NCBI RefSeq assembly: GCF_964204645.1 | Contig: NC_134028.1 | Span: 4,996,501 to 5,060,500 of the forward strand | Length of the DNA stretch: 64,000 nucleotides | DNA from: Tubulanus polymorphus | Lineage: Eukaryota > Nemertea > Palaeonemertea > Tubulaniformes > Tubulanidae | Reading direction: 5' to 3' | Part shown: positions 6,101 through 25,084 of the stretch, one piece after another | Position numbering within the stretch: position 1 is the stretch's first letter | Layout of the letters: each line of letters begins with the position of its first letter | The notes under the pieces: model-generated | Database searches by the model: none | Seen by the model: the letters and a program-made list of their open reading frames with translations, nothing else | What the model was told of the DNA's origin: nothing | Position numbers and translations under genes: made by a program

Positions 6101-7954
6101 TGAAATTTATCATTTGATTCAAAAACTCATTCCAAAAGCTTCCATACAGAAAATAATTTTCTAATGAATAAATCTGAAGGCGTTTCAACTGGAAAATTTG
6201 GGTACCTCTGAAAAATAATATTTCAAAGCCAAGAACACGTGAAGCCCTTCTGCATCCAGTTCCACAGTAATAGCTTAAGTTGGATAATGATTCTTTGCCA
6301 TTGTTAAATCTTAACCGAGGAATGTTGATCTGAACCGGGGGTTATCTCTGAAATATTCATAAATATTTCCTTGTTGTAACTGATTTTATTCGCTCAGTGT
6401 TTTGAACGAGAATGTAGGCGCGAAAAAATATTAGAAGGTCGACATCGTGAAATGAAGTTGAAAGAGCGGGAAAAAAGTGCCGGCGGAACGGCTAAAAGAC
6501 CGGTAAGAATCTCGATGACACTGATTGTAATCGATCCATGTTTCTCTAAAATAGATGTTAGAACGAGAAACGAGAAGAGAAAAAATTCTCGACGCTCGAC
6601 ATCGCGAGAATAAACTGAAAGAACGAGCTAAAAGTGGCGGAGGAGAGAAGGTATTTCACCACGGCACGCGTCTGCTGTTCGGTTTGCGGTTCACATTCGT
6701 TTTATATTTTTGTCTCTAACACGTTTGAAGTTGCTGTGACTGCCACCTATATTCATCGGGATTAATTAACTGCATGTTTGTTTGTTTTTTTTTGCATTTT
6801 TTAATAATCGTGCCGTGAGACCTCGTTATAACGAACTGGATAGAATACGACTAACTGTAAAGAGTTTCACTTCATATCCTGAGTTCATTACAACGAGGTT
6901 CCACTATTTAACATTTTTGCCAAGTTTTATTCATGCAATTGTTATCGCGGTTTGCGTGCGGGTTTAGAATTTTTATCTCGCTAAAAATATATCGGCCAGC
7001 TTTAAGTGAATTTAAGAAAAAATACTAACCGAATATTTCAGATGGATTTGGTGAGTTGTTAGATAAGAGCTGTTTATAAATTTACATTTTGCAAGTTTTT
7101 GCACTCACAATACCAGTAACAGAAATTTTTGCTTGATAATCGCAATGTTTGGAACCACAAAACTTGGATTCTAAGGGGCTGTCCATAAAAGACATCCAAG
7201 GTTGAGGGGGGTATATGGACAAGGGAGGAAGAGGGACATTCTGTGGACAACGGAGGAGGGGGTCGAAATTCTATAGTGGATGTTTTTATCTAAGTTCATA
7301 ATAGCCTTTAATTTTCATAAAATGTTCAGTATTAGGTTATATTTTATCATCTTCCATTTTGATTTCTGGAGATGATTTTCATGCATCATTTCACAGCCGT
7401 CGTTGAACTGGTTATTTTTCGTTTGTTTTCATCGGCGTTCAGGAACATGAAGAGGAAGGTCAAGAAGAGGAGGGAGAGAATCTGGTTGATAAAGCTGAAC
7501 TTGACTTCTTCCACATGATCGACCAGGAGAAGAAAACTCGTGAAAAGAAAGAAGCGGCGAGAATGGAAGCCGAGAAGAAAGATGAAGAAAGTAACAAGGT
7601 AATTTTCACATTTCAATCACTTTACATTAGAAGATGACAGTTGCTTTAATTTGGATTAAGTTGATGACACTGCAGTTCTAATCATCACTATGTCGAGTTA
7701 TCCACTGGTAAATTTTAACCAATTTTTGATCCCTGGTCAACTTAAAATTTAGATTAATTTCCTCAAATTATTATTCTTTAGAACATAATTATTGAGGAGG
7801 AAAAAGAGGACGAAGAACAAGATTCCGGAACGGAAAAAGCTGATGCTGTGAGTAAAAAAGAAACTCTGATTTATTTCATTTCCAAAAAAATAATTTAGGA
7901 TTTTAATTAAAAGTTGTTCACTGATTTCAGGAATCACAAGAGAAAGAGCAGTAA
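3164..7954 (+). CDS. DNAI2: Dynein axonemal intermediate chain 2
   Basis: WD-repeat intermediate chain of the outer dynein arm, needed to assemble and dock the arm in motile cilia and flagella. Coding exons: 3164-3346, 3643-3804, 3887-4005, 4284-4426, 4513-4626, 4963-5225, 5304-5483, 5555-5598, 5691-5826, 5905-6051, 6398-6502, 6555-6650, 7042-7050, 7443-7598, 7782-7847, 7931-7954; frames join at every junction, giving 648 residues if all are used (human about 605). The N terminus [20 protein letters not shown] is near identical to vertebrate DNAI2, as are [16 protein letters not shown] and VGDWTARIW in the WD region. The tail is acidic and Glu-rich, as in the family. Exons 11 and 12 are a tandem duplicate and exon 13 is only 9 nt. 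Start is the first Met of the conserved N terminus. A likely poly(A) signal is at 8272. Confidence 0.95.
4785..4910 (+). repeat. Dispersed intronic repeat, copy 1
   Basis: This stretch in DNAI2 intron 5 shares phrases such as GAATTGTAACATTTT, CACTCAGGGAATTTT and GGGATTTGTAAG... GTGG...CGCCCTG with 37735-37870 in an iRhom intron. Both copies have the same orientation relative to the window. No ORF or terminal repeat was seen; the family is not identified. Confidence 0.6.
6398..6650 (+). other. DNAI2: Tandemly duplicated DNAI2 coding exons
   Basis: Exon 11 (6398-6502, 35 codons) and exon 12 (6555-6650, 32 codons) encode related charged helices; 22 of 30 aligned residues match ([11 protein letters not shown] against [11 protein letters not shown]). 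Both begin and end in phase 0, so either or both can be spliced in. The intron between (6503-6554) is only 52 nt. Vertebrate DNAI2 has one such segment. Confidence 0.85.
6814..6906. mobile_element. Degraded Tigger/pogo-like MITE
   Basis: ACCTCGTTATAACGAAC at the left and an inverted ACAACGAGGTTCCAC at the right match the termini of the better preserved element at 38517-38688. The outer bases are eroded. It sits in a DNAI2 intron. Confidence 0.6.
7042..7050 (+). other. DNAI2: DNAI2 9-nt microexon
   Basis: ATTTCAG / ATGGATTTG / GTGAGT: a full acceptor with a CTAAC branch-like motif just upstream, nine bases (Met-Asp-Leu) and a strong donor. It keeps the frame from exon 12 to exon 14. Inclusion is inferred. 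Confidence 0.5.
7173..7292. mobile_element. Possible short inverted-repeat element
   Basis: AAGGGGCTGTCCATAAAAGA at the left is partly mirrored by the right end near 7270-7292, with a G-rich centre. The opening resembles common invertebrate MITE termini. The match is imperfect. Confidence 0.3.
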
Positions 7955-8277: not shown

Positions 8278-9001
8278 CAACAACAAATGAACAATCTAAA
8301 TCTATTTCTGATCACTTTTTCTGCTGTTTACACGCCTGATTGTCAGCCTCAAAAGCTCCATGCCGATATAGCTACCATCCATACATCCACTTTTCGGGGA
8401 TTTATTAAGATCTTTATCGCTTTTTATTGCTACTAAAATAACATAATTGCTTTATGATGACAGCTATCGGGAGAGTAAAGCTAGTTAGCAGCATAATGTA
8501 TATGTATCAATCGTCTTTATTTTTCCCCCAAAAAAATCATACAATCGGTTTTTTAAATTCGTCGTTTTTAATTTGAATGTTACGGTGTAATTCATTCAAT
8601 ATTTGATTATATTTGAAAGGGCTGACAAGGCTACTTGGGGAGAGGCCGCCACCCGATTATTCAAATATCAACGAGAATCTCATCTCTCGCATCGAAGTAA
8701 CTATGTATTTTTGAAATCGGAGCCGCTCGGTCAAAAGGTCGCACCGTGTGCAAGTTGTACCATGTTGACAGAGAATTTCAGATTTTTGGTACACTGCACT
8801 ACTTAGTCAAAATCCGAGTAAATTATGGAAGCCCTGAGACGACATTGCCAGTTGCCAGTTGCCAGTTGCCAAAAGCTTATTGTTTGCTAGCTTTCCTTGC
8901 TTGCTTGAGTACCTATTCTGTCTTCGAAAAGAAAGGCTCAAATAAATTTTTTTCTCTTACCAATCTTATCCATAAACAAACATTTACATGAACGCCATTG
9001 A

Positions 9002-9270
9002 AATATTTTGGAAAAAACAGATACTATCATTTTAAGACTGAAAGCAAGAAACGAAATTCTTAATATGGACTAGTTCCTAGATTTACATGATGACACCGTT
9101 TAATCCAGTATCAAAATTAAAGAAAGAAATTTGGGTTTTTCAAATTATGAGTGGTAAGCGCAATGAAGTTGTTGGCAGAATTTCCAGAGGATCCATGCTG
9201 CAAGTAATCTAAAAAGCCTAATATGTCTCCACTCAATTGAATAAGAATTTTTATGAATTAAAATCTGTCT
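9002..9270 (+). repeat. Dispersed 270-bp repeat, copy 1
   Basis: Nearly identical to 23457-23725 (for example GTTGTTGGCAGAATTTCCAG and AATAAGAATTTTTATGAATT in both), with a few substitutions and small indels. Both copies begin in AAAACAGATACTATC and end at AAATCTGTC. No terminal inverted repeats were seen; the type is unknown. Confidence 0.8.
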
Positions 9271-11224
9271 ATTGATACAAAGAAACTCCATCGACAATCT
9301 CCTTGCCTTAACGTCTGCTGAGGAGACCACCAATTAAGCATTCAAAACGCTATGAAAGCCTGGGTATAGACAAATTCGAAAAGTCTGCATGCAAACCCAG
9401 ATGAAATTTGGTCAACCTTCCGAACAATGACCAAACAACAGTCTAAGACGAAAGACCACCGCGTCATCAAAAATCTTAATAGTTAACAACCAGGGCCCAT
9501 AGGGCTGACCGCGCGTTAGTACGGGACTTAGTTTGTGTTACGAGCGTGAATTGACTCAATTGAACTGGCGTTTAGTAAATTCCCTGAGAACCACCCACGA
9601 TCATTCGACTGTGACCATGTGAAATCTATAAGCACACAATCGCGTCAATGTATTACGACATGCTACTGCATGAAACATAATGTGATTCATATATACCTTC
9701 CACAGCCAAATCTCCAATAGTTTACCACAAATTCCAAACCAACCTCATTGGAATATATCTTTCAGGGTCGGTTTTGGTTTTTTAATGAGAAATATTGAAA
9801 CAGGCATACTTTCAATATTATGGAAACTAATGTTCAAAACATGTTTTTTTTTTTTAAATCAGATGTGTTTGCTTTTATCCATCGACGCTTCCTCAACGGA
9901 TTTCTTCCCAAGATTCTGATAAAATGGCCACCCGTCCTTGATGTAGACTTCAGGTGCTCATTTTTATGGCACTGTTTGAGTTTTATATGAATCTTAACGT
10001 GAACAAATCTACGCAGTGTGATTTGAACTTCTAGACATTCCCTGAGATGCTATATTCTCTCATTCGACCACACTCTATTAAGTCTAGCAATTGAAATTCT
10101 GATATATTTGCCTAGATCTGCCCTCGTGGTGTAATTAGCTTCAAGCCCAAGCTACTTCAGGCATGTGATATCCTGCACTTTTGATATTTTCCTTTTCGAT
10201 TTTGTTTATGTTGCGTCAAGGCTTTTGTAGTTGGATAATGTAAGCCTACACGGTCAGGCCTACCTTCTTTGCTTACTTTTTCCATTACGGTACGGTAACG
10301 CAATTAACCAGGCACTGAGAGGATAACCTAATTGTTCCTAACATCTATTACCCGAAGATTGTTTCGCTGCTATCTTTCAGTGAGCCAACGAGTTGTTGTT
10401 TGTGAAATCTGAATTTGAACATAATTTGTATTTTGAATTTTTAAACTATTAACTTTGACGTGGAAAAAAATAGAACAATCTACTGTTCGGATAATTATCA
10501 TTTAATTATCTAGCTCTACCCCTGAAAATGGATCCAATATGATTTATAGTCTTGGGATACCACAAGACACGAACGACGTAAACTAAGCAAGATAAGTAAA
10601 CGGTAGGCCTCATGTACAAATACGGGTAGAGTATATTAATCGGTTAGTTTATGTATTCGCCACAGTATTTAGGGGCAGCACTGGACGATTGAGATTTGAC
10701 AGCTGTGGCATGCGAGCAGGTAATTTATCCGCGATCCTTTTATCCTACCCTCACAATTAGATATTAGTCAATAATCCTAGGTAATCTGTATTTAAAATAA
10801 ACATTAAAACATCGATCAAAACGGGTTTTCAACTGACGTGAACTGAAAAATCAATTCCGTTCAATAAAATATCTACATTTATGTTTGCATTTGATACTGT
10901 AAAACGCGGAATTTCTCCACAATCGTTCAATCGAGTACTAGTCTTTGACACGATCAGATGGCGTTCTCTCGAGCTCTTCAGCTTTTGCTGTGTTTCCTGG
11001 CGATCTTGTGGCGCGGTGGCGTGTGGAGTGGTGGATGGAGTTATGTGTGCGGTGGATGGAGTTGTGTGCGCGGTGTGTGCAAGAGGAGTGAATGGAGTTT
11101 ATATGTGTCGTATGAATGTGTGGTATATTTTATATCTTTATTTTTTTCATTATTTTTCTATATTATTTGTTTTTTCATTTTTTTTTCTTTCATTTCATTC
11201 GTCCCTCGCCCCCGCCCTCTCAAT

Positions 11225-11844
11225 CTCAGGGTTTCAACTGGCAGCGGCAGAGTCTGAGTTCACTAATGTGGTCTTGTTCCAGCTAGTGGCGGAGTGCTGG
11301 TGATGCAGATGTTACTACGGGGGACCTACAATCAGAATAAAATGGGGGCGGTAGCAATCTTCGACTGAGGGGGCTGTTGGATCTTTAGGTCCCCAGTTTG
11401 GTCCATTCTAGTCTGAATCTGCTGGTTCATTGCCTAAGGCTACCCATTGGCGTCTTGCTGATGGGCTCCCCGTTCACCCAGTTTTTCTCTGTCATCTGGG
11501 TGTCGGTTGTCTTAGGTGGTGTGCTCAATTCTCAATTGGGTCCCCAGTTTGGTCCATTCTAGTCTGAATCGGCTGGTTTCTTCGCCTAAGGCTACCCATT
11601 GGCATCTTGCTGATTGGGCTCCCCGTTCACCCAGTTTTTCTCTCTCATCTGGGTGCCGGTTGTCTTTTGGTGTTGATGCTTGAAGATCGGATATCCCCCA
11701 AAGCCAAAGTTGTTTGTCGCTTCCCGTCTTACTCTGATTGCGGGTCCTCCGTAGTAACACCAGTGTCATTGGCACCCCGCCACTAGCTGGGACGAGGCCA
11801 CGTTACAGAACTCCGGCTCTGCCGCTGCCAGTTGGAACCCTGAG
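11225..11844. mobile_element. Snapback element with internal direct repeats
   Basis: Arms 11225-11337 and 11733-11844 are inverted copies (CTCAGGGTTTCAACTGGCAG against its complement at the right end). Between them are two direct copies of a roughly 125-bp sequence (11389-11514 and 11540-11667). There is no transposase frame. It is probably a nonautonomous foldback element. Confidence 0.7.
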
Positions 11845-14063
11845 AACCGGACTTTGCTGTTATCAGCCAGAAGTTCTGTGCTGACTTCTTTCTCTCAGGT
11901 TAGATCAAATATGATGTAAAGCCGTTAAACTATGTATTACCAGCGTCTATATGGTTGTACTTCGATTTAAGCCGTGAAACTGTGTGAATTTTATTTTTCA
12001 TCCAAGGTTCTTTCCCCTTCCATCAAAATCTTTCCCAATTTTTCTTGTCGCAGCGTATGATATCGTCTATATTGTATTCGTGAACTCTGTAATCTCGAGC
12101 ATCTTTTGTGTACTTCAAATGCATCCTAAACTCTGTATCTTCGATTTCTGATTCAGACCCCTCATCCTGGCCTTTCATCTTTTTCATCATCCACTATCAA
12201 AGTTAGATATAGTTGCAAATTTTGTCTTGTTAATTAATGATTATGTACTATTTAATTTCAGCTCATTTTAAGCAAACTTGGGGCAATGGTGGTATATCAG
12301 GGGTTGATTTTTACTAATTCCAAAATACAGGTGTTCTCAAAAAACACTTATCGTGTGGGGAAGAGGTATATGGTTTGGCTGTATATGTACCTAACCCAGA
12401 CACGAACGGAGCTGGCATAAATCTGTGGCACGATAATAGTTAATACTATTAATGATAGGGATGGTTATGAGATAATTAAAGCTTTCTCAAACCACAGTGG
12501 TCAGGCTCTGTCTGACAAACATTTTGACTTAATATATAATATGCTCTCTTCATCTTGTCATTTCGCTAGCCAGAAGTCAAACTCCGATGGTGGGAAGTCT
12601 GGTGATACCAACATCCATAATCTGACTCTGGGACTGAGTCCGATGGCACCATTGGACGTTCTAACAACATCATTACCTAGTCAACACGCGGGACAAACAA
12701 CTTGGAGGATGAATAAGGATATAACTAAGGTGAATTACTCATTAAGGTACTACTTAGATATCTACAATTAAGGTAAATTATTTTGAATTCAAGTACATTG
12801 ACATTAAAAATGTAGCTGATACATGTGTATCTGAGCACATTACTTATTTATCTGTGTCTAAGTGAACCTATTGTGTCTTCATACAGCTGTTTTAGTTTTG
12901 ATACATATTGCCAAAATCATTTAACGCAGATTTAATTCTGATCGAAGGGAGATAAAACAAATCTGTACGTGCAAAATACATTCCTGAATTTGGTAGGGGA
13001 ATACTTCAATATCACTGTGTATGTCAGATTGAGAGCCTTATTCTGACAGGATATCCTGAACTTAGGTCTTATTCCTCTCGCTAATAGCTCTCTTTTACTA
13101 ACCCCCTTCCTTCAAACTATATTCCAGCATCATGTCTTGCACCGCACCAGGGAGGTCCGGTCATAACAAGGTCTTTTGATCCTTATACACAGTGTACTGT
13201 AAAAGGGAAATAAAGATTATATTGCAATTCGGGTAAGGGAATTTCTAATTTACCACTAAAAATGTGATTTTATCTTAAGTTCTGATGAATTCAAATAGTG
13301 ATGAATTCACCACATCTGAAATTCTACTCGTGTAGGTTTTCAGGCTCCATATAAATATTGTTCGACTGACAATTAATTGTGGCTAGTATGATTACTAATT
13401 AATGGATCGCTTAGATAATTAGTTAGAATTAATTCAATATAACGAATTTAAGTTTATTAAAAATAGCGCAGTGGATGAGACGCTGTATCGTGCAATGTTG
13501 TCTGCATCTAACTTGGCCACATGTGTGTGGGATCTGTTGAATCAGTTAGGTTTTGGGGAATTCTGGGTTCGTTAAGCTAGTTATATTATCATAATCATAA
13601 GATCATTGTATATATTTTACCAGCAATATTTAAAATTACTGAAATGGATTAGAATACCATTCACTGGGCACAGATGTCTGTGGGAAGAATACATATCTCT
13701 TAAAAGTTTATTAATTGGCGATGAAGTTATTTTGATAATACGAACAAAGTTTAGCTGGGAATCGAAATGTATATAGGGGCAATTTTACTAGCAGGTTTGC
13801 ACTATATGATACTATTAATCAACTAGTCATAAAATGTACAAAATGATCTTCAACCTTGTAATATAGATATTCCAATCTCGATGTATCAAAATAGGCAGTC
13901 CCCAATCAGACGCTTGCCGGTTCAGACTGGTTGGAAGATTAATTGAAGGCACCGGAACCGAATTTCCCGTTATGTGCTTGGATTTCAAGCAAAGAATATT
14001 TATGTAAAATGGACCGCCGATCACGCAACTATATCTGTACTTCGATTTCCGATTTTGAAAAAA
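11845..14063. other. Intergenic, no gene recognised
   Basis: AT-rich sequence without a recognisable exon, RNA gene or complete element. A frame at 12541-12771 has no family resemblance. Confidence 0.4.
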
Positions 14064-14256
14064 CTTTACACGGAGAAAGCAAAAGTAAAAAGTAAAACTT
14101 AGACAAAATTATCTTAACCTTGTAAACTTTCGGACTATTTACATGAAAAGAAAAGCAAAGAAATGTAAAATTAGACAAAATTCAAACATTGTAAACTTTC
14201 GGACTATTTACACAGAAAAAACAACAAAAGATATGTAAAATTAGACTTCCAACTTA
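14064..14256 (+). repeat. Short tandem repeat ahead of the splice-unit array
   Basis: Two to three copies of a roughly 70-bp unit marked by GTAAACTTTCGGACTATTTA (near 14120 and 14190) and TGTAAAATTAGAC. It runs into the first exon-like block of the following array and could form the 5' exon of that transcript. Confidence 0.7.
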
Positions 14257-14917
14257 GGAGACCCTCGGCGATAATGAACCCGGCAATCATAAAAGGTAAC
14301 TTAATATAGTTGAAATTATTGCGATAAATTCTAAATGAAATACTTTGTCATTACAGGATATCTTCTTTTAATCATTGCAGCTAAATTTCAACTATGAGAA
14401 AAACCCAGTTTGAGATCAACTACTCGTCCAAAATCGACCAACTGGAACAGCGCACAGCCAACTAGAATCAACCAACCAACTTAGATGATCCACACCGATA
14501 ACGAATCCAGCAATCATAATAGGTAACTTAATATAGATGGAGTTATTTCTCAATGAAATGTTTTGTGATTACATGATATCTTTGTTTACTCTTCAGCTGA
14601 ATCCTATCTTCATCAAACTGCCCAGCTTGAGATCAACAACAAATCAAATCTACCGATAAGAACAGCCCACACAACAATTCAAGCTTAAATCAAATGCATC
14701 AATGAACTTAGAACATTTTAACTGATACGGAACCCAGCAAACTTGAAATGTAAGTTGATATTTTATGGAAATGATAATGATGAATTCTAAATGAAATAAT
14801 TTGTCATTACAGGCTATCTTCTTTTAATCGTAGCAGCTAAATTGCGACTATAAGAAAAAACCCAGCTTGAGATCAACTACTCTTCCAAAATCGACCAACT
14901 GGAACAGCGCCATTTGC

Positions 14918-15053
14918 CAAATTTTTGTAGTCTCTCGTACTGTAAACAGAGGGCGCATGGGTCTGCTGGCATAGCCACTGACTAGAGATAGCCACTGTTG
15001 TCACAGTTGATACAGTACGATGTGACCCGGCTGCTGGGTCAGGAAATTCATAC
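14918..15053 (+). repeat. Dispersed 140-bp repeat, copy 1
   Basis: Shared with 15507-15648: both open with CAAATTTTTGTAGTCTCTC and share CTGGCATAGCCACTGACTAG, ending near GAAATTCATAC. Both interrupt the tandem array, so they arrived after it formed or were spread with it. Confidence 0.75.
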
Positions 15054-15506
15054 AAAGTCAAACGAGCGCTTGAGGTCAACAACTCATCTAAAATCTGCCG
15101 ATTAGAGAACAGCGCACAGAAGGGGCCTGAATTCTGAATGAAATATCTGTATTTACAGGATATCTTTGTTTACTCATTTTCAGCTAAATCCTATCTATAT
15201 GAAACTGCCGCTCATGAGATCAACAACTCGTTTAAAATCTGCCGATTAGAGAACAGCACTCAGAAGGGGCCAATTTGAATTGATCTCAACATCAACCAAC
15301 CAACTTAGGAGATCCTCGCCGATAGCGAACAAAACAATAATAAAAGGTAAGTCGATATACATGAAATTATCTCATATAATGATACTGAATTGTTGTACCG
15401 CCAGCTCCTTCGTTACTGGATGTATTGCCCTAAAAATTTGCCCGGCGGTAGATCTCAACGTGTTTTATCGCTTGGGCATGGTTTCCATTCAAAATTATTC
15501 ACTTTC

Positions 15507-15648
15507 CAAATTTTTGTAGTCTCTCCTACTGTTCACAGAGGGTGCATGGGTCAGCTGGCATAGCCACTGACTAGAGACAGCCACTGTTGATACAGTACGA
15601 GCTACTGCTGCCTTTGTGACCCAGCTGCCGGGTCATGAAATTCATACA
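15507..15648 (+). repeat. Dispersed 140-bp repeat, copy 2
   Basis: Second copy of the sequence at 14918-15053, embedded in a longer (about 500 bp) non-array stretch that separates a donor at 15347 from the next acceptor at 15951. Confidence 0.75.
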
Positions 15649-17141
15649 TTATGAAATGATCATATCGGTACTTTACATGTTTGTTTCTATCTATAGTTCT
15701 GTAACCTTGGGCCTCCATGGGAAGAAGGTCAAGTGAGTCCTGAGATCCCGTATGGTCTCTATATGGGCACAGCTGATCACACCACATAAATTAGGCCACT
15801 TTGAAATGCCCAAATACTCAATTAACATGCAACGAAATAAAAAGTCGGAAGTTCTTCATTTAGAAATCACCCGTGGTTTCCACGGGCTTTCCACTAGTTA
15901 CGATTAATTCTGAATGAAGTATTAACAGGATATCTTTGTTGACTATTTCAGCTTTATCCTATCTATATGAACCGGCTGCGCTTGAGATCAACAACTCACT
16001 TGAAATCTGCCGATTAGAAGACAGCGCACAGAAGAGGCATTTAATTACCAAAATCTATGCACCCGTCCACATTGCTGATCTGATATATATCCGGCCTGTC
16101 ATTAATCTTAAACAGTGATGAACTAATGCTACTACTACAACAAATAATTAGGCAGTTGGGGTTCGAAACTAATGTCCTACCACACCGAGTATCCAAGCCA
16201 ATACCGAACCTAGAAATCGTTAAAGGTAAGTTGATATAAATGAAATTATTACGATTAATTCTGAATGAAATATTTGTATTTACAGGATATCTTTGTTTAC
16301 TTGTTTCAGCTGAATAATATCTATATGAAACTGCCGCGCTTGAGGTCAACAACTCGTTTAAAATCTGCCGATTAGAGAACAGACTAAGACAATCCTAGCC
16401 GACACCAAACCCAGTTATCACAAATCACATCTATAAGAAAAAGCCCATACTAAGATCAACTAACCATCTAGAATCTACTGATTAGAACAGACCACAGAAG
16501 AATGCACCTTGAATTTTACTAATCAACCAACTTAGAACTGCTAGCCAACACTAAACCAAGTTATCTTGAAAGGTAAATTGATTTTATTATCATTAATGCT
16601 ATATGAAAAATTGTGTATATTGTAAGATATTGTCTAATTACAGGATATCTTCTTTTATTCATTTCAGCTAAATTACATCTATAAGAAAATGCTCAGCCTA
16701 ACATTATCTAGTCAAAAATGTACTGATTCGAATAGCCAACAGAATATTCCAACTTGAATTGAAATCATCAACTACCACAGAACGAATTTAACTCAAGAAC
16801 CGACTTAGACGATCCTAGCCGATACTTAACGCAGCAATCTTGAAAGGTAAGTTGATTCACATGGAATCTATTATCATTAATGCTATATGAAATATTGTCT
16901 GAATACAGGATATCTCCTTTTGTGCATTTCAGCTAAATCACATCTATAAGAAAAAGCCCATACTAAGATCAACTAACCATCTAGAATCTACTGATTAGAA
17001 CAGACCACAGAAGAATGCACCTTGAATTTTACTAATCAACCAACTTAGAACTGCTAGCCAACACTAAACCAAGTTATCTTGAAAGGTAAATTGATTTTAT
17101 TATCATTAATGCTATATGAAAAATTGTGTATATTGTAAGAT

Positions 17142-17858
17142 CAGAGATGAAAATTCCCTGCGGATCCGCGGTTTCCCGCGGATTTCAGTATTGAAAAATA
17201 TCAATTTTCCAAATAGTCCAAAAATGATGTAAAAGTATGGGGGGGGGGGGGTGATGATCTCACTCAATTGGTCCGGCGCGATCGGTAATCAGGTGAAGTG
17301 TAAAAGCGTTCAGTGCCTGTTTTACTTATCGTCACGTAAAAGTATTGCATTTCAATGCATATTCATTGCAACACAGTGATTTTGTATGTACATTTGTACT
17401 ACGATGAGTTTGTATGTATTTTATCGATCGGTTGCAGACACGCACGCACAGCAACAGTAGTAACGTATATAGGTCTACTTACTGTTGCTGCGTGTGTGTG
17501 GCGAACGCTTTCGGATATTATACACTACTTGGTGATGATTTTTAGTGAGCATTCATCGGCGCATTTTTACTGCAATAATTCAGGGCTCGACCCGTAATGC
17601 ATGAGATGCTGAATGTCATCAAATGAGGATGTACCACATTGGAACTAGCCATTACCTTCCAAAATATAATAGTCGTTCATGGGTTCGAGATCGCTCTAAG
17701 TGCTCGGAAAACGTATTTAATTTCTAAAATTTTCTTGGGGGAGGGCCCCCAAACCCCCCCTAAATAGCTTCGCGCCTTCGGCGCTCGCTGGTGCTGGTTC
17801 GCATATGTCACTCAAGAAATTAACCCGCGGATTTTACAGGTCGGCGTTCTCATCCCTG
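17142..17858. mobile_element. 717-bp nonautonomous DNA transposon in the array
   Basis: Terminal inverted repeats CAGAGATGAAAA (left) and the complement of CAGGGATGAGAA (right) bound a block absent from sister units. AAGAT flanks both sides as a 5-bp direct repeat, and removing one copy restores the array sequence. It contains a run of ten G and a frame at 17355-17597 without a known domain. The termini recall hAT elements, but a 5-bp duplication does not fit the usual 8 bp, so the superfamily is open. Confidence 0.75.
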
Positions 17859-19099
17859 AAGATATTGTCTAATTACAGGATATCTTCTTTTATTCATTTC
17901 AGCTAAATTACATCTATAAGAAAATGCTCAGCCTAACATTATCTAGTCAAAAATGTACTGATTCGAATAGCCAACAGAATATTCCAACTTGAATTGAAAT
18001 CATCAACTACCACAGAACAAATTTAACTCAAGAACCGACTTAGACGATCCTAGCCGATACTTAACGCAGCAATCTTGAAAGGTAAGTTGATTCACATGGA
18101 ATCTATTATCATTAATGCTATATGAAATATTGTCTGAATACAGGATATCTCCTTTTGTGCATTTCAGCTAAATCACATCTATAAGAAAAAGCCCATACTA
18201 AGATCAACTAACCATCTAGAATCTACACATTAGAACAGACAACAGAAGAATGGCACCTTGAATTTTACTAACTTAGAACTCCTAGCCGACACGAAACCCA
18301 GTTATCTTGAAAGGTAAATTGATTTACTTGGAAATTATTATGATTAAAGCTATATGAAGAATTGTGTATATTGTAAGATATTGTCTAATTACAGGACATC
18401 TTCTTTTATTCATTTCAGCTAAATCACATCTATAAGAAAATGCCTAAGATTTAACTAGTCAAAAATCTACTGATTCGAATTGGCCAACAGAATATTCCAA
18501 CTTGAATTGAAATCATCAACTACCACAGAACGAATTTAACTCATGAACCGACTTGAAAGGTAAGTTGATTCACATGGAATCCATTTTCATTAATGCTATA
18601 TGAAATATTGTGTGATTACAGGATATCTCCTTTTGTGGATTTCAGCTACATCACATCTATAAGAAAAAGTCCATACTAAGATCAACTAACCATCTCGAAT
18701 CTACTGATTACAACAGACAACAGAAGAATGCACCTTGAATTTTACTAATCAACTAACTTAGAACTCCTAGCCAACACTAAATCCAGTTATCTTGAAAGGT
18801 AAGTTGATTTACATGGAATTTATTATGATTAATGCTATATGAAAAATTGTGTATATTGTAAGATATTGTATAATTACAGGATATCTTCTTTTATTAATTT
18901 CAGCTAAATCACATCTATAAGAAGAAGCTCAGCCTGAGATCAACTCGTCTTCTAGAATCTACTTATTAAAACTGCCAACAGAAGATTCTAACTTGAATTG
19001 AAATCATCACCTACCACAGAAGAGTCCAACTGCGTAGGCCTAGAAGTCCAGATGAGAAATTCAGCCAGCAGCGGTTTATCGCCCAATGACAGATTTCTT

Positions 19100-19245
19100 C
19101 TACAGGTGGAGCAGAGACAATGCGTGTGTTGTATAAAAACAATTAATCAGGACCAGCAGAGACAATGTATATATATTGTGAACATTTATTCAGGAGCAGC
19201 ACAGACAATGCGTACCTTATAAACACTTGTTCAGGAGCAGCAACG
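19100..19245 (+). repeat. Short tandem repeat in the array's last block
   Basis: Three imperfect copies of a roughly 50-bp unit with CAGGAGCAGCACAGACAATG-like cores, just before the poly(A) signal. Confidence 0.6.
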
Positions 19246-19364
19246 TCAGTAGAATATGTAAAGTATTGATTTATTTTGTGTATTACCTTTTTACAAACCA
19301 GTCTGATGTGTAACATGGGTTTCAAAATGCGTCTTAAAATGCACTGTCTATTTGAAGAGGCGGA

Positions 19365-19370
19365 AATAAA
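19365..19370 (+). terminator. Poly(A) signal ending the array transcript
   Basis: AATAAA follows the donor-less final block of the array and is the first such signal after it. Confidence 0.4.
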
Positions 19371-19389
19371 GAAATAGTTTTAATGTTGA

Positions 19390-22300
19390 TTAATGAAAAT
19401 TGAAGTTAGATAAGTAGGGCTCTGGGCCTGAGAAGGAACTATTCATATTTGAATATTTCAATTAAATGGCATCCTAATTCTTTCATATTGATTAGGCAAA
19501 CTGTTTTCGATTTGTAAACAGATGTGTCATGTCCTTTGTAATGCGACAGAAAGTTTCTTCTTGGAGTCTCATGAAATCTACGCTCCATTAATTCATGGTA
19601 TTGATCGCATTCAGCGTCACGGTTGAAATACACCTAAACTGAGACATGATATCAACAGGATAGCTCAGATAATCTTCATACTTAGTTAAACATAGCTTTG
19701 CATGATTTGTAATAATGACATAGTTTGGTCTCTTAGAAACAGTGATTCATTTTATATTGAGTGAAAATGATTTGCATAGCCTGAATGTTCAAAAGGGAGA
19801 GGGTAGTCAGTTAAACGGTTGAAACTTTTAAACGCAATAAAGGAAGTTGATACCTGATTAGTTAAACTCGTCCAGCAAGTTTATGGGCTTTGAATAAAGA
19901 TGTTTTGAAAATGATTCCTTGGCCAAAAAGTGGGCCTTCAGTATAGACTGGCTACGCCCTTGAATATCATCACGTAGTTAAGAAAAATATAGACTATAAT
20001 GTTTGGCAGTATTCTGTGTACAAATACTAAGTTTATATACCAAAGTGTTGTATTTGTTGATGCCATAATTCTTTTCCAATGCCCATAAAAGCAATTTGAC
20101 TAATGAGTAGAATATCTTGATTTTCACAGAGTTTTAGCATTGAGCTTCCATGTAGATGATCATAGCTAGGTATATGAAAACTTGTATCTTAGTACATTGT
20201 ATCCACAGAGGTATAAGAGAGGTATAGCTAGGAATAATGTGATATAAAGGAATAAATGATAATGGCCAGCAATAATTTTGATCGTTTTAATTCTGTTTAT
20301 AGCTGTTTTAACTTCTTTCATCATCATCCATATCATAAGGTTAAGTTGCTTTCAATGATCGCTTAACTCCAAATAGGGGTTTCTAATGATAAACGATTAT
20401 TTAGGAGCAGCAGTGAATTTGTAGCACTTTTTTAAAGTGAGCCCATATTTCCACCGGTAAGAAATTCCTGATGATGTAAATAGTAAAAAATAGTACAAAA
20501 TACAAAATACATAGAACAAATTAAAGAAGTAAATAAATAAAAAAACAATGAATAAAAAATACATAACAAAATAAATATTTAAAAAAAAACAAAATAAAAT
20601 CATAAGTAATAAAAAAAATAAACAAAAACGAACAAACAATTAGTTAACTTCTATAATTATAATCATCATCAGGAATTTTTTTTAATTAACTTAATCTAAT
20701 CATTAAAGGTTCTTCTTCACATGGAACAACCTTCTCTAGAGTTTCCCAACCTCTTATGATCATTTCTGTTGTTGTTTTAAGCATTCTATCGGACGGTTAG
20801 TAATAAACAAAACAAATAACCATAAACCTTAACTAAACCAAACACACTGAAAAAATAACTGATTTGATAGAATGCTTCAAATAACTGATGAAAGATCACC
20901 CGCCCTTTTACCTATAGCACACCCTGTCACTGCTGTTACTGCTGATTGTTTTAGGCATAATATCTGGGAGATTTTACATTTTACTCTTTTTTAGAAAGAA
21001 TGTTAAACAGCTTTAAACATGATTAGTTATCGATAGTAAAATTATTGTCATGTTCTCAAATAACTTTGTATTAAATGAGCGAACTGATAATGTTTGAAAA
21101 TCATAAGTTAAGACGAGGGGCAGCGGAAGCGGGACTTTGTAGGTTTTGTCTCTTGTTTAAATGCTTTTATGTCGAACTGTCGAACTATTAAAATACAGTA
21201 CATTTGTTAACAAGGAACTTACATGATAATTCCTCGAGTACGTAAATACCTGTCATTTAGCAACGTTTTGTCGTGAGAATAAAACGACACATACGTGTTC
21301 ATTATTCATCTTAGAATTTTTCGACTTTAGTTAGGTTTATAGCAACTATCAAACTGAGGTCCTATTGAATATAGAGGGGCATTCTTTTCTATAAATGAGG
21401 AAATATGAACAGTGTTGATTAGTAAATTGTCCTAGCTATGTTTTGATAGCTATATTGTCAGTTTTACAATATATGGGGCCTGATTCAAATCTGCGCATGA
21501 TGCATTTCCGATCTCGAAAAAGTTATCGAATTCAGCTTAATTGTAGATATCTCAGTGATCTGTTATTTGTAATTTACCTAGATATATGGATAGATGAAAT
21601 ATCTATACGATGATACTCAATATATCTTAATTAAAAACACCTTCAAAATACTTTGCATTAAACATAACAATGTTGAGAAAATAACATTGATAATGTTTGA
21701 AAACCTCAGGCAAGGTTGGCAAAACTCTAGCTATCTTACTTAAAACTCTAGTTATCTTGTAACATAATGTTTATGGACATGAAAAAATTAAGATTGATTA
21801 GTTAATCTCAAGCTTTCCAGTTTGAATCTGTAGGTATTATTAGTTTTAATGCTTTTATGTTGAACTGTTTTTCGAATACAGTAACTGTATGAACTGTAAA
21901 AATTCACTCATGTGTTAACGAGTAACTTACAATTCCTAAAATACAAAGAAAAGTTTGCGAAATTTCGGTTTTCTTTTAAGAATAATGTTTAATGAAATAA
22001 AATGAGAGATTCATTATTTGAGAGAGCGAATTTGTGGATTTATGGAGTTTTAATGTTTATATGTTGGAGATATGTTATGTAGTTCTTTGATGATTGATGA
22101 TGCATAAACAGAGTATCCTAAATTTCTCTTACATATGGTAAAATGCTTCATATTTCATGAAATAGCCAAATGTCACTTATGCCTGGTGACTACATGAATT
22201 GTCAAATTAATAGTCTTAGACATTCAGACTGGTCCCAATTGTCGGTGTTTTATGGATCAAAGTTTACAATTCTTTGTGTTATTTTATAATTATCCTATTG

Positions 22301-22950
22301 ATTCAAATTTTCTGAATCAGTTGTAGTCGAAATGTTTTTGGTGAATAAAAACCTTGAAAAACCTTGCAGTAGCAATTGTGATGTTAAAGGCTAGTGCGGT
22401 AATCTTATTTTTTGGATAGCTCATTATAAGGCTAAAAATTATACCTTGTTTTTCCTGATCAGCCAGCTGTCATTTTGTAAATAACAATGATACTTGTAAT
22501 CAGTTAATCTCTATAACTGCCGAATCTGTTATGGTTAGCTTGATCATGATTTTAAAGTAATACCTATAAGGTAGATAGGCGTCTGGCCGGGTCAACTTTC
22601 AAGAGTAAAAATGTAAAAATCAGATTGATTCAACATTAAATCTTACGCTTTCCAGGGTAATTGGCCAGGTTTACCTCTGGTTTTAGTGCGGGGAGCCATG
22701 GACTCTTACAGTTTAGCGCCCATGGTTGTGGCCCATAGACATTTCCGTTTTAGAGTCTATGGTTGGACCATGGTTGTATAAACTCTAGTTTATAGTTTAT
22801 ACGTCCATGGTTGGACTGTTTTTGAAATACAGTCCACGTGTTTGAGGAACTTACGTTAAAATTCCTCGAGCACATACCTGGCATTTTGTATAATTGTTGT
22901 ATGATAATAAATATGTTTGTTTGAAATTCTTTATTTTATTTGTTTAGTGA
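19390..22950. other. Intergenic, no gene recognised
   Basis: AT-rich, with a strongly A-biased stretch near 20480-20640 that is bracketed by short inverted copies of TTCCTGATGATG (20464 and about 20663). Several frames are open only because of base composition. No exon or RNA gene is supported. Confidence 0.4.
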
Positions 22951-23184
22951 GGGAGCGTTCACAAATTACGTACCTCAAAATCTCCCGTTTTTCTGACGAT
23001 AATACACCAACGGCTATTTTCATTTGAGTTTGGTACATAAAGTACGTACCAAGATTGATTAATACCCCCTCCCTCAAAGTACGTACCTTTTTGCTGACCA
23101 CTCAACTTCCCCCATGTACTACTTTGTACCAAAATTCAGTAACCCCCCTCCCCCAATGGAGGTACGTAATTTATGAACGCTCCC
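22951..23184. mobile_element. MITE with GGGAGCGTTCA termini
   Basis: The left end GGGAGCGTTCACAAATTACG is mirrored at the right end (complement GGGAGCGTTCATAAATTACG), with a second inner pair of similar sequences. TTAG lies near both outer ends and may be the target duplication. No coding content. Confidence 0.75.
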
Positions 23185-23456
23185 TTAGCTATTCTGAACT
23201 TTTTTAGTTGACCAGTCAGTGGTTTTTTTGCAATCCACCTCTTTTTTCAACCCAATATTTCCACCAGCATTGTCCGGAGACGAGGATGTGCGGAAAACAT
23301 GATGATGCGATTATATCAATGGCAATACAGCTTAAACCGGACACACTGACACTTGTTGACCGGTTAGAAGCAAGTATTTAGCTGCCGAAGAGTATTGTGA
23401 AATCAGCAATCTTTTTGATTGTCACTATAGCCATCCGTTGACCAAACAGGCTTTAA

Positions 23457-23725
23457 AATACTTTGAAAAAAAACAGATACTATCATTTTAAGACTGAAAA
23501 CAAGAAACGAAATTCTTAATATGGACTCCTGGATTTACATGATGATGTACTGTTTAATCCAGTATCAAAATTAAAAAAAGAAATTTGGGTTTTTTCAAAT
23601 TATGAGTGGTAAGCGTAATGAAGTTGTTGGCAGAATTTCCAGAGGATCCACGCTGGTGCAAGTAATCTAAAAAGCCTAATATGTCTCCTCAATTGAATAA
23701 GAATTTTTATGAATTAAAATCTGTC
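23457..23725 (+). repeat. Dispersed 270-bp repeat, copy 2
   Basis: Partner of 9002-9270, same orientation. A 75-codon frame begins in its last bases and runs into unique sequence to 23908; I do not recognise its product and consider it chance. Confidence 0.8.
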
Positions 23726-24551
23726 GGGGTTTTATTATTCGATCATGCATTCAATCCACTCGCGTCGGATCTGGGACCGCAAAGACGTGGGACTCTGGAA
23801 TTCGATATCGTTGAGCTGGGTACAGAGGCGCGTATTCAGCCCGGCAGTGGAACATTTGATAAACTCATATGGACGTATAAAATACTTTTTACGTCCATGA
23901 TAGTCTAGTACCTAGCCGTCGTTCCACAAACAAAAAACGGTTGTAGGGAATCTGAAACGAATATACGTAAACTGTGTTTTCGTCCAATTCTACGATCAGC
24001 AGAAAGGTGTCCTTTCGTCCTAGTCGACCAGTTGATACCGTGCGTATGTTTCAGAGAGACTATTAAAGAGGTGTGCTCTACTATCGGAAGCGATCCTTTA
24101 TCGAACGTCTCTTAAAATTCGAATCCAGACGAGGAGAATACTAACTAGTATATTTTCGATGACCTGTCGTGAATATTATTTATTGATGTATGTCAAAGCT
24201 CGCTACTCACAGGTCGGCCTTTTCGTTATAGTATCCGGAGCTCACGACTCGCAGGTTGATGACCCTGTTCTGATCTGATCTGAACTGAACTGAACTGGAC
24301 TGGACTTTCTGAACTATCTCAAAAATGTTGATTAGGTATTTATAAGTGATGACTAGAGTTGACACCTAACCCTAACCCTTCACCTTACCCTAAACCCTCT
24401 AGACCCTAACCCTAACCCTCTTGACCCGCTGGACCTTGCCCTCTAGACCCTTAAAATGCCGTTATATTGTTTTGTATATTAGCTATGTACTGTACCAAAC
24501 ACTGAGAAATTCTCTATCAACATGGTACATTTTGCCTTATGTGTGGGATTT
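23726..24551. other. Intergenic, no gene recognised
   Basis: Contains the frame mentioned for the preceding repeat and the telomere-like tract at 24365. No family resemblance or splice chain was found. Confidence 0.4.
24365..24420. repeat. Interstitial telomere-like tract
   Basis: Two blocks of CCCTAACCCTAACCC separated by degenerate copies. The TTAGGG-type repeat is the usual metazoan telomere unit; here it is internal and short, so it is probably a relic of break repair. Confidence 0.7.
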
Positions 24552-25084
24552 CTATGGTGGCTGATTCGGGCCATGTAATAAAAATATCACAAACGTTACA
24601 AATTTTTTTTTGCAGACGCTAAAAAGTCGTTTTATCGCGCAATAAAACTAAAATTACCACGTTAAAACGAGAAATTACCGCGATAAAACAAGAAAAAGTC
24701 GTTTTATTGCGCAATAAAATGAGAAAAAGTCGTTTTATCGTGGCAATAAAACGAAAAAGTTCGTTTTATCGCGCGATAAAACGACTTTTTCTCGTTTTAT
24801 CACGCAATGAAACGGCTTTTTCTCGTTTTAACGCGGTAATTTTCGTTTTATTGCGCTATTTTTCGTTTTAACGTGGCAATAAAACGAAAAAGTTCGTTTT
24901 ATCTCGCGATAAAACGACTTTTTCTCATTTTATTGCGCAATAAAACGACTTTTTCTTGTTTTATCGCGGTAATTGTTCGTTTTAACGTGGTAATTTTCGT
25001 TTTATTGCGCGATAAAACGACTTTTAGGTGTCTGTAAAAAAAAATGTGATTTTTTTTTTACATGGCCCGAATCAGCCACCATAG
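24552..25084. mobile_element. 533-bp highly palindromic element
   Basis: Long terminal inverted repeats (CTATGGTGGCTGATTCGGGC at the left, its complement at the right) with ATTT on both flanks. The interior is built of many direct and inverted copies of an AAAGTCGTTTTATCGCG-like motif, including the perfect palindrome TTTTATCGCGCGATAAAA near 24770. There is no ORF. Confidence 0.85.

Follow-up and report, generated by a model that had tools for sequence, protein, structure and literature searches.

Among the closest described counterparts of the locus analyzed here are three from different sources. The Cg_HINE elements of the Pacific oyster are nonautonomous Helentrons, noncoding and dispersed, with a central satellite-like tandem array (PMC7492417); the introns of the rat noncoding RNA gene Bsr form tandem repeats (PMC11028025); and in the long noncoding RNA (lncRNA) FIRRE, the RRD repeats coincide with exons, namely, with 7 of the 13 human exons (PMC4820808). 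The subject of the present analysis is a tandem array located in a stretch of 64,000 nucleotides (nt) from the genome of the nemertean Tubulanus polymorphus (contig NC_134028.1, positions 4,996,501 to 5,060,500, hereinafter the window), in which each repeat unit consists of an intron-like piece followed by an exon-like block. This array seems to join features of the Cg_HINE, Bsr and FIRRE kinds, and comparison of its copies across the genome suggests that, on balance, it is more probably than not part of a dispersed mobile repeat that carries a repeat-built, probably spliced noncoding transcription unit.

As in Cg_HINE, so far as the account of that family goes (PMC7492417), the length of the array varies between copies and the flanks are modular; unlike Cg_HINE, the unit contains splice-like sites, with a constrained acceptor, and the whole dispersed repeat is 10 to 16 kb in size. 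The repeated introns, and the gain and loss of copies by non-allelic recombination, recall Bsr and the SNORD113-116 repeats as they are presented in the cited report (PMC11028025), whereas the introns of the array encode no C/D small nucleolar RNA (snoRNA). With FIRRE, the array shares the coincidence of the repeats with the exons of a noncoding RNA (exon-like blocks in the present case), the difference being that the FIRRE repeats are described as local to one locus (PMC4820808) whereas the unit found here is dispersed.

A pattern scan of the window detected 12 donor-like sites (first base of the GT at 14296, 14523, 14750, 15347, 16226, 16573, 16847, 17086, 18082, 18314, 18560 and 18799) and 13 acceptor-like sites (first exon base at 14381, 14597, 14837, 15184, 15952, 16310, 16668, 16933, 17903, 18168, 18419, 18646 and 18904). 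An earlier sequence-only reading of this DNA had listed the same numbers of sites in register, and the scan, spanning positions 14296 to 18904, confirms them, including the two junctions that had been singled out, 16846/16933 and 18559/18646. The proposal that each unit has splice-like sites of its own is likewise borne out by the scan and by the unit alignment: the unit, about 240 nt long, always contains a 3' splice-like site and usually a 5' one. The intron-like pieces are T-rich (42%) and 74 to 105 nt long (10 measured), and the exon-like blocks are A/C-rich and 141 to 179 nt long (7 measured). The final block was correctly described as lacking a donor, none being found after the acceptor at 18904, and as leading to an AATAAA; of the 21 loci searched for this signal, 17 have a match at its position, and among these the AATAAA occupies the aligned position in 11, is displaced by several bases in 3 and has disappeared from the other 3. 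The array is detected by the repeat search and by the unit profile and is absent from the list produced by Tandem Repeats Finder, the presumable reason being the divergence of the units and the insertions among them. One interruption is an inserted element in an intron-like piece (Table 1), and the repeat search revealed two insert-like stretches related to it, at 14911-15065 and 15500-15659.

The recurrence of the sites in register adds no independent evidence, given that any repeated unit would repeat its sites as well; such evidence comes from their differential conservation. The quality of a single unit can be judged against chance: among 4000 random units with the order-1 composition of the array itself, scored with approximate splice-site frequencies, 5 contained a donor-acceptor pair, 60 to 130 nt apart, that matched one typical unit.

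To delineate the spread of the unit, we searched the 268-Mb genome assembly to which the window belongs (77 contigs) at E <= 0.001, with the best 40 of 345 candidates scored, and obtained at least 129 unit matches, which we grouped into at least 34 places, the window included, on 11 contigs. The measurements reported here cover 21 of these loci, that is, the window and 20 that were fetched. Eleven copies are young, namely, the window copy and ten others (L009-L017 and L024) that share with it long stretches beyond the array, with the longest flanking matches showing 90-96% identity and with parts missing in some copies. The remaining, older loci are roughly 65-87% alike to the window copy, in pieces, and the genome contains many older and shortened copies besides the young ones. 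On contig C8, two copies adjoin each other. An exact search with a 36-nt piece of the unit in a set of viral contigs yielded no match.

For the analysis of conservation, 165 units from the 21 loci that cover the intron core were aligned (36 of the 201 matched pieces were dropped), and changes were counted per column along a tree; the donor counts rest on the 139 to 141 units with letters at the respective positions and the acceptor counts on 164. Over all 265 columns, the mean change rate is 0.053 per sequence. The acceptor AG is intact in all 164 units, with no inferred changes, and is the only adjacent change-free pair of columns among 264; position -3 is C in 153 units, T in 10 and A in 1. 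By comparison, for the 17 other AGs of the unit, the intact share ranges from 18 of 84 to 152 of 163 sequences (21-93%). The donor GT is intact in 133 of 139 units, with a mean rate of 0.025 vs 0.072 for the 31 flanking columns, and the motif GTAA[GAC]T occurs 60 to 260 nt past the acceptor in 86 of 148 cases vs 461 of 2221 background windows. The sequence-only reading had named, as an outcome that would refute it, splice bases that change as fast as the rest of the unit, which is not the pattern observed for the AG and the GT. Recent change was assessed separately in 11 clusters of closely related copies, with 127 units in total, by comparing the number of single-copy changes with that expected: the acceptor shows none vs 3.6 expected (P = 0.027), and when shared differences are included, the counts are 0 for the acceptor (P = 7e-6) and 4 of 210 for the donor (P = 0.035). 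The pyrimidine tract changes more slowly than the exon-like block, with 5.6 vs 8.2 events per column.

The exon-like blocks show no sign of protein-coding capacity. Among the 139 units with the full 150 nt, 124 have no open frame and 15 have one, compared to 13.5% with one among shuffled blocks, and the rates at the three codon phases are 0.053, 0.055 and 0.058 (permutation p = 0.66). Coding exons are ruled out by these results, in agreement with the earlier description of blocks with stops in all frames. A Pfam scan of 10 stop-to-stop frames of 68 to 153 amino acids, from a total of 45 listed for the region, gave no match at the cut-off, and the frame at 12421-12768 had no match in PDB or Pfam. 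A conserved RNA fold, a check for which had been proposed for the aligned blocks, did not materialize either: RNAalifold predicted 0 pairs for 10 exon blocks, and the folding z-scores give no structure signal, with nine exon blocks between -0.45 and 1.43 and six introns between -0.46 and 1.18. C/D snoRNAs in the introns were considered and rejected, given that RTGATGA is found in 11 of the 165 introns, none of them with a spaced CTGA (0 of 165 with spaced C and D boxes). Rfam searches yielded no match within the array at the gathering score, another difference from Bsr and SNORD113-116; in the element and its relatives, all matches were below the threshold.

A trace of mobility comes from the copy on contig C11, which has the same inverted ends as the window copy, with GTCTGAACC outside both of them, a 9-bp target-site duplication. 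The search for these ends across the genome, in which the best 40 of 91 candidates were scored, also identified a locus on contig C3 (7962387-7962776) where matches to both inverted ends lie within about 390 bp of each other; this apparently is a short form of the element. Some terminal inverted repeat transposons, such as Mutator-like elements, combine inverted ends with 9-bp duplications, and one copy of the present repeat shares both features. Unlike these transposons, however, the repeat has no transposase in the frames tested, a single clean duplication was found, and most of the young copies lack the ends. HINEs, as they are characterized in the part of the report used here (PMC7492417), make no target-site duplication, in contrast to the C11 copy with its inverted ends and 9-bp duplication; in two old copies none was seen.

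The number of units differs between the copies, with 2 to 16 profile matches per locus, fragments among them. At one locus (L057), adjacent units are 96-97% alike and spaced by 233-235 bp and therefore have multiplied in place. Within the window, 300-bp segments starting at 16624 and 17859, 1235 bp apart, are listed as 100% identical (one base differs by our own reading), and the C11 copy, which is about 95% alike, has a single segment in place of this pair. Such duplications in place, together with the differing unit numbers, agree with the earlier proposal of growth by unequal crossing-over, and the expected variation in unit number holds between the genomic copies.

We infer from these comparisons a large element without a detected protein gene that would be moved by proteins supplied from elsewhere and whose plus strand would be a transcription unit composed of repeated exon-intron modules, with the AATAAA downstream as the polyadenylation signal. 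Transcription of this strand followed by splicing would produce a noncoding concatemer of approximately 150-nt modules ending at the AATAAA; splicing of the units appears likely, although not proved. Within each copy, the array would have grown and shrunk by unequal exchange, and whole copies, the array included, would have reached new sites. The simplest guess about the role of the RNA is that it is selfish. A more specific proposal, which we put forward tentatively and consider less likely than not, is that the array of exon-intron modules is the main cargo of the mobile element, that its RNA is spliced to the concatemer and that the acceptors are kept because splicing, or the concatemer itself, aids the persistence of the element. 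The benefit could consist in splicing the element's units out of host transcripts into which it inserts or, alternatively, in the formation of a nuclear RNA.

Several observations weigh against the reading of the array as a spliced unit of a mobile element, some of them against splicing and the others against the mobility of the element with the ends described here. As regards splicing, the donor shows no recent constraint among the close copies (2 single-copy changes vs 2.9 expected). Position +5 of a donor is usually G; in the array, it is G in 76 of 139 units and falls within the fastest 2% of the columns. At the downstream edge of the unit, where the alignment is poor, 95 of 153 sequences retain an intact donor. 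The pyrimidine tract has no bias for pyrimidine-to-pyrimidine changes (36:39 vs 289:320 in the exon, p = 1.0), the branch-like motif YTRAY is present in 96 of 165 units vs 55% in shuffled sequences, that is, at chance level, and a second AG, located 24 nt upstream of the acceptor, is also fairly conserved (139 of 162 intact). Finally, change is slower in the intron-like part (0.042) than in the exon-like part (0.058), contrary to what would be expected of an RNA that functions through its exons.

These observations lead to the foremost alternative, namely, that the array is a satellite-like internal part of a nonautonomous transposon and is not spliced at all, the roughly 60 conserved base pairs up to the acceptor being a DNA- or protein-binding motif required for mobility or else a reflection of founder history. 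The slower change of the intron-like part and the negative outcome of the pyrimidine-tract, branch-motif and +5 tests all fit this scenario, and dispersed elements of the oyster with internal tandem arrays of 140-180 bp offer a precedent, as far as the cited account describes them (PMC7492417). What speaks against an unspliced array, however, is that the only adjacent change-free columns happen to form the acceptor AG, with C or T at -3 in 163 of 164 units, that the donor GT is slow amid fast neighboring columns, and that an equally good pair of sites is so rare in random units. We regard an unspliced array as possible rather than probable.

As regards mobility, the search with the best 40 of 91 candidates scored showed both inverted ends in just two of the 11 young copies, that of the window and that on C11, the left edges of the other copies lie near 8819-8824, 9045 or 9277, and both ends are also found in smaller elements. 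Because few young copies have the inverted ends, the edges differ and smaller elements carry these ends too, it may be that they derive from a smaller element that was joined to the core. Inspection by eye revealed no target-site duplication at the borders of the window copy, and none was recognized in two old copies that share a different, sharp left edge. Given the inverted ends and duplication of the C11 copy, but retention of both ends in so few young copies, mobility appears likely, and we favor a mobile, probably nonautonomous element, the limits given here and any assignment to a superfamily being provisional.

The lack of inverted ends in most of the young copies would also be expected of a host family of functional noncoding RNA genes that spread by segmental duplication, with each copy under selection. 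Such a family would account, in addition, for the absence of single-copy changes in the acceptor AG among the close copies and for the retention of the AATAAA, in its aligned position, by 11 of the 17 copies that match this site. The donor, however, shows no matching recent constraint, and the C11 ends with their 9-bp duplication, as well as the many old and shortened copies, fit a mobile repeat better, which makes host genes of this kind an unlikely explanation. Far less credible is a protein gene in decay, the coding exons of which had been duplicated in tandem: the 15 blocks that are open in one frame over 150 nt might be seen as its remnants, but shuffled blocks are open equally often, no periodicity is detectable across the family tree and the 10 frames searched, out of 45 listed, have no Pfam match, so that, for the family in its present state, this possibility is refuted. 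Least of all can the array be a single-copy, local gene for a repeat-built lncRNA, as the sequence-only reading had proposed: the sites, the polyadenylation signal and the stops are as described there, but the occurrence of the unit at at least 34 genomic places and the similarity that extends far outside the array on both sides refute this proposal as to the single copy and leave it with negligible probability.

Table 1. Features of the dispersed repeat and its array in the window (positions are counted from the first nucleotide of the window)
Feature	Position	Strand	Evidence and remarks
Left inverted end of the compound element	8750..8793	+	84% inverted match to 24491-24535; among young copies, present in the window and C11 only
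280-bp subterminal direct repeat, left copy	8998..9269	+	92% match to 23453-23725
Core of the dispersed repeat, common to young copies (parts missing in some)	9277..22948	+	Flank comparisons
Tandem repeat upstream of the array, period about 70	14088..14246	+	Amplified in another copy (L058)
Tandem array, unit = intron-like piece + exon-like block	14296..19040	+	13 acceptors, 12 donors; 15 profile matches in the window copy
Intron-like piece, example, 86 nt, GTAAGTTGATT ... TTTCAG	16847..16932	+	Pattern scan, unit alignment
Exon-like block, example, 153 nt, A/C-rich, G-poor, no sign of structure	16933..17085	+	
Inserted element of 0.7 kb in one intron-like piece, with a G run and short inverted ends	17142..17858	.	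Absent from the C11 copy
Intron-like piece, second example, junction 18559/18646	18560..18645	+	Pattern scan
Last exon-like block, without donor, running to AATAAA at 19365-19370	18904..19370	+	Sequence
280-bp subterminal direct repeat, right copy	23453..23725	+	92% match to 8998-9269
Right inverted end of the compound element	24491..24535	-	Among young copies, present in the window, C11 and C10 only

Other parts of the repeat and its surroundings show additional repetitive features. Inside the right inverted end, at 24360-24427, there are telomere-like CCCTAA repeats that are common to the C11, C10 and C1:30.48M copies, and to the right of the element, at 24620-25025, a dense array of repeats resembling TTTTATCGCG and CGCGATAAAA. 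The dispersed core includes, at 11224-11845, an inverted repeat (11224-11346 vs 11723-11845) around a 153-bp tandem repeat. A stretch of about 236 bp at 22948-23185, with inverted ends of its own (22950-22976 and 23159-23185), is skipped by copies that span this position, such as those on C11, C10, C5 and C8. At the right ends of two old copies, L072 and L074, there are tandem repeats with a period of about 75 bp that include a box-B-like motif, GGTTCGAACCC, and L075 has approximately one such unit; a tRNA identity of these repeats was considered and rejected, ARAGORN having found no tRNA in L072, L074, L075 or L057. Outside the array, on the minus strand at 7321-7394, a weak SNORD36 match just above the gathering score (30.9 vs 30; E = 0.63) is the only one in the window. 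Further along, the frame at 28223-28690 matches MT-A70, with METTL14 among the named relatives in the protein search, as befits an animal genome; by our reading, the respective gene starts near 25.8 kb. Rhomboid and ENTH domains are encoded past this frame.

Satellite-like arrays inside transposons are already known, and so are noncoding RNAs in which exons or introns are repeated. Among the titles and abstracts that we surveyed, we recognized no paper describing the arrangement reported here, and a search for 'lncRNA' together with 'tandemly repeated exons' returned nothing. In the T. polymorphus genome, such a transposon and such an RNA seem to be united in one dispersed element, each repeat unit of which combines an exon with an intron, the acceptor being constrained. 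A practical caution follows for the interpretation of raw sequence, in which tandem splice-like arrays can be the insides of dispersed repeats. If the more specific proposal, with the module array as the main cargo, is correct, this would be a transposon shaped by splicing signals rather than by a protein or an RNA fold. If the repeat is transcribed, its dozens of copies that differ in unit number would provide a natural series for addressing the importance of module number in a repeat-built RNA, and the same series would bear on the question why a mobile element keeps splice sites.

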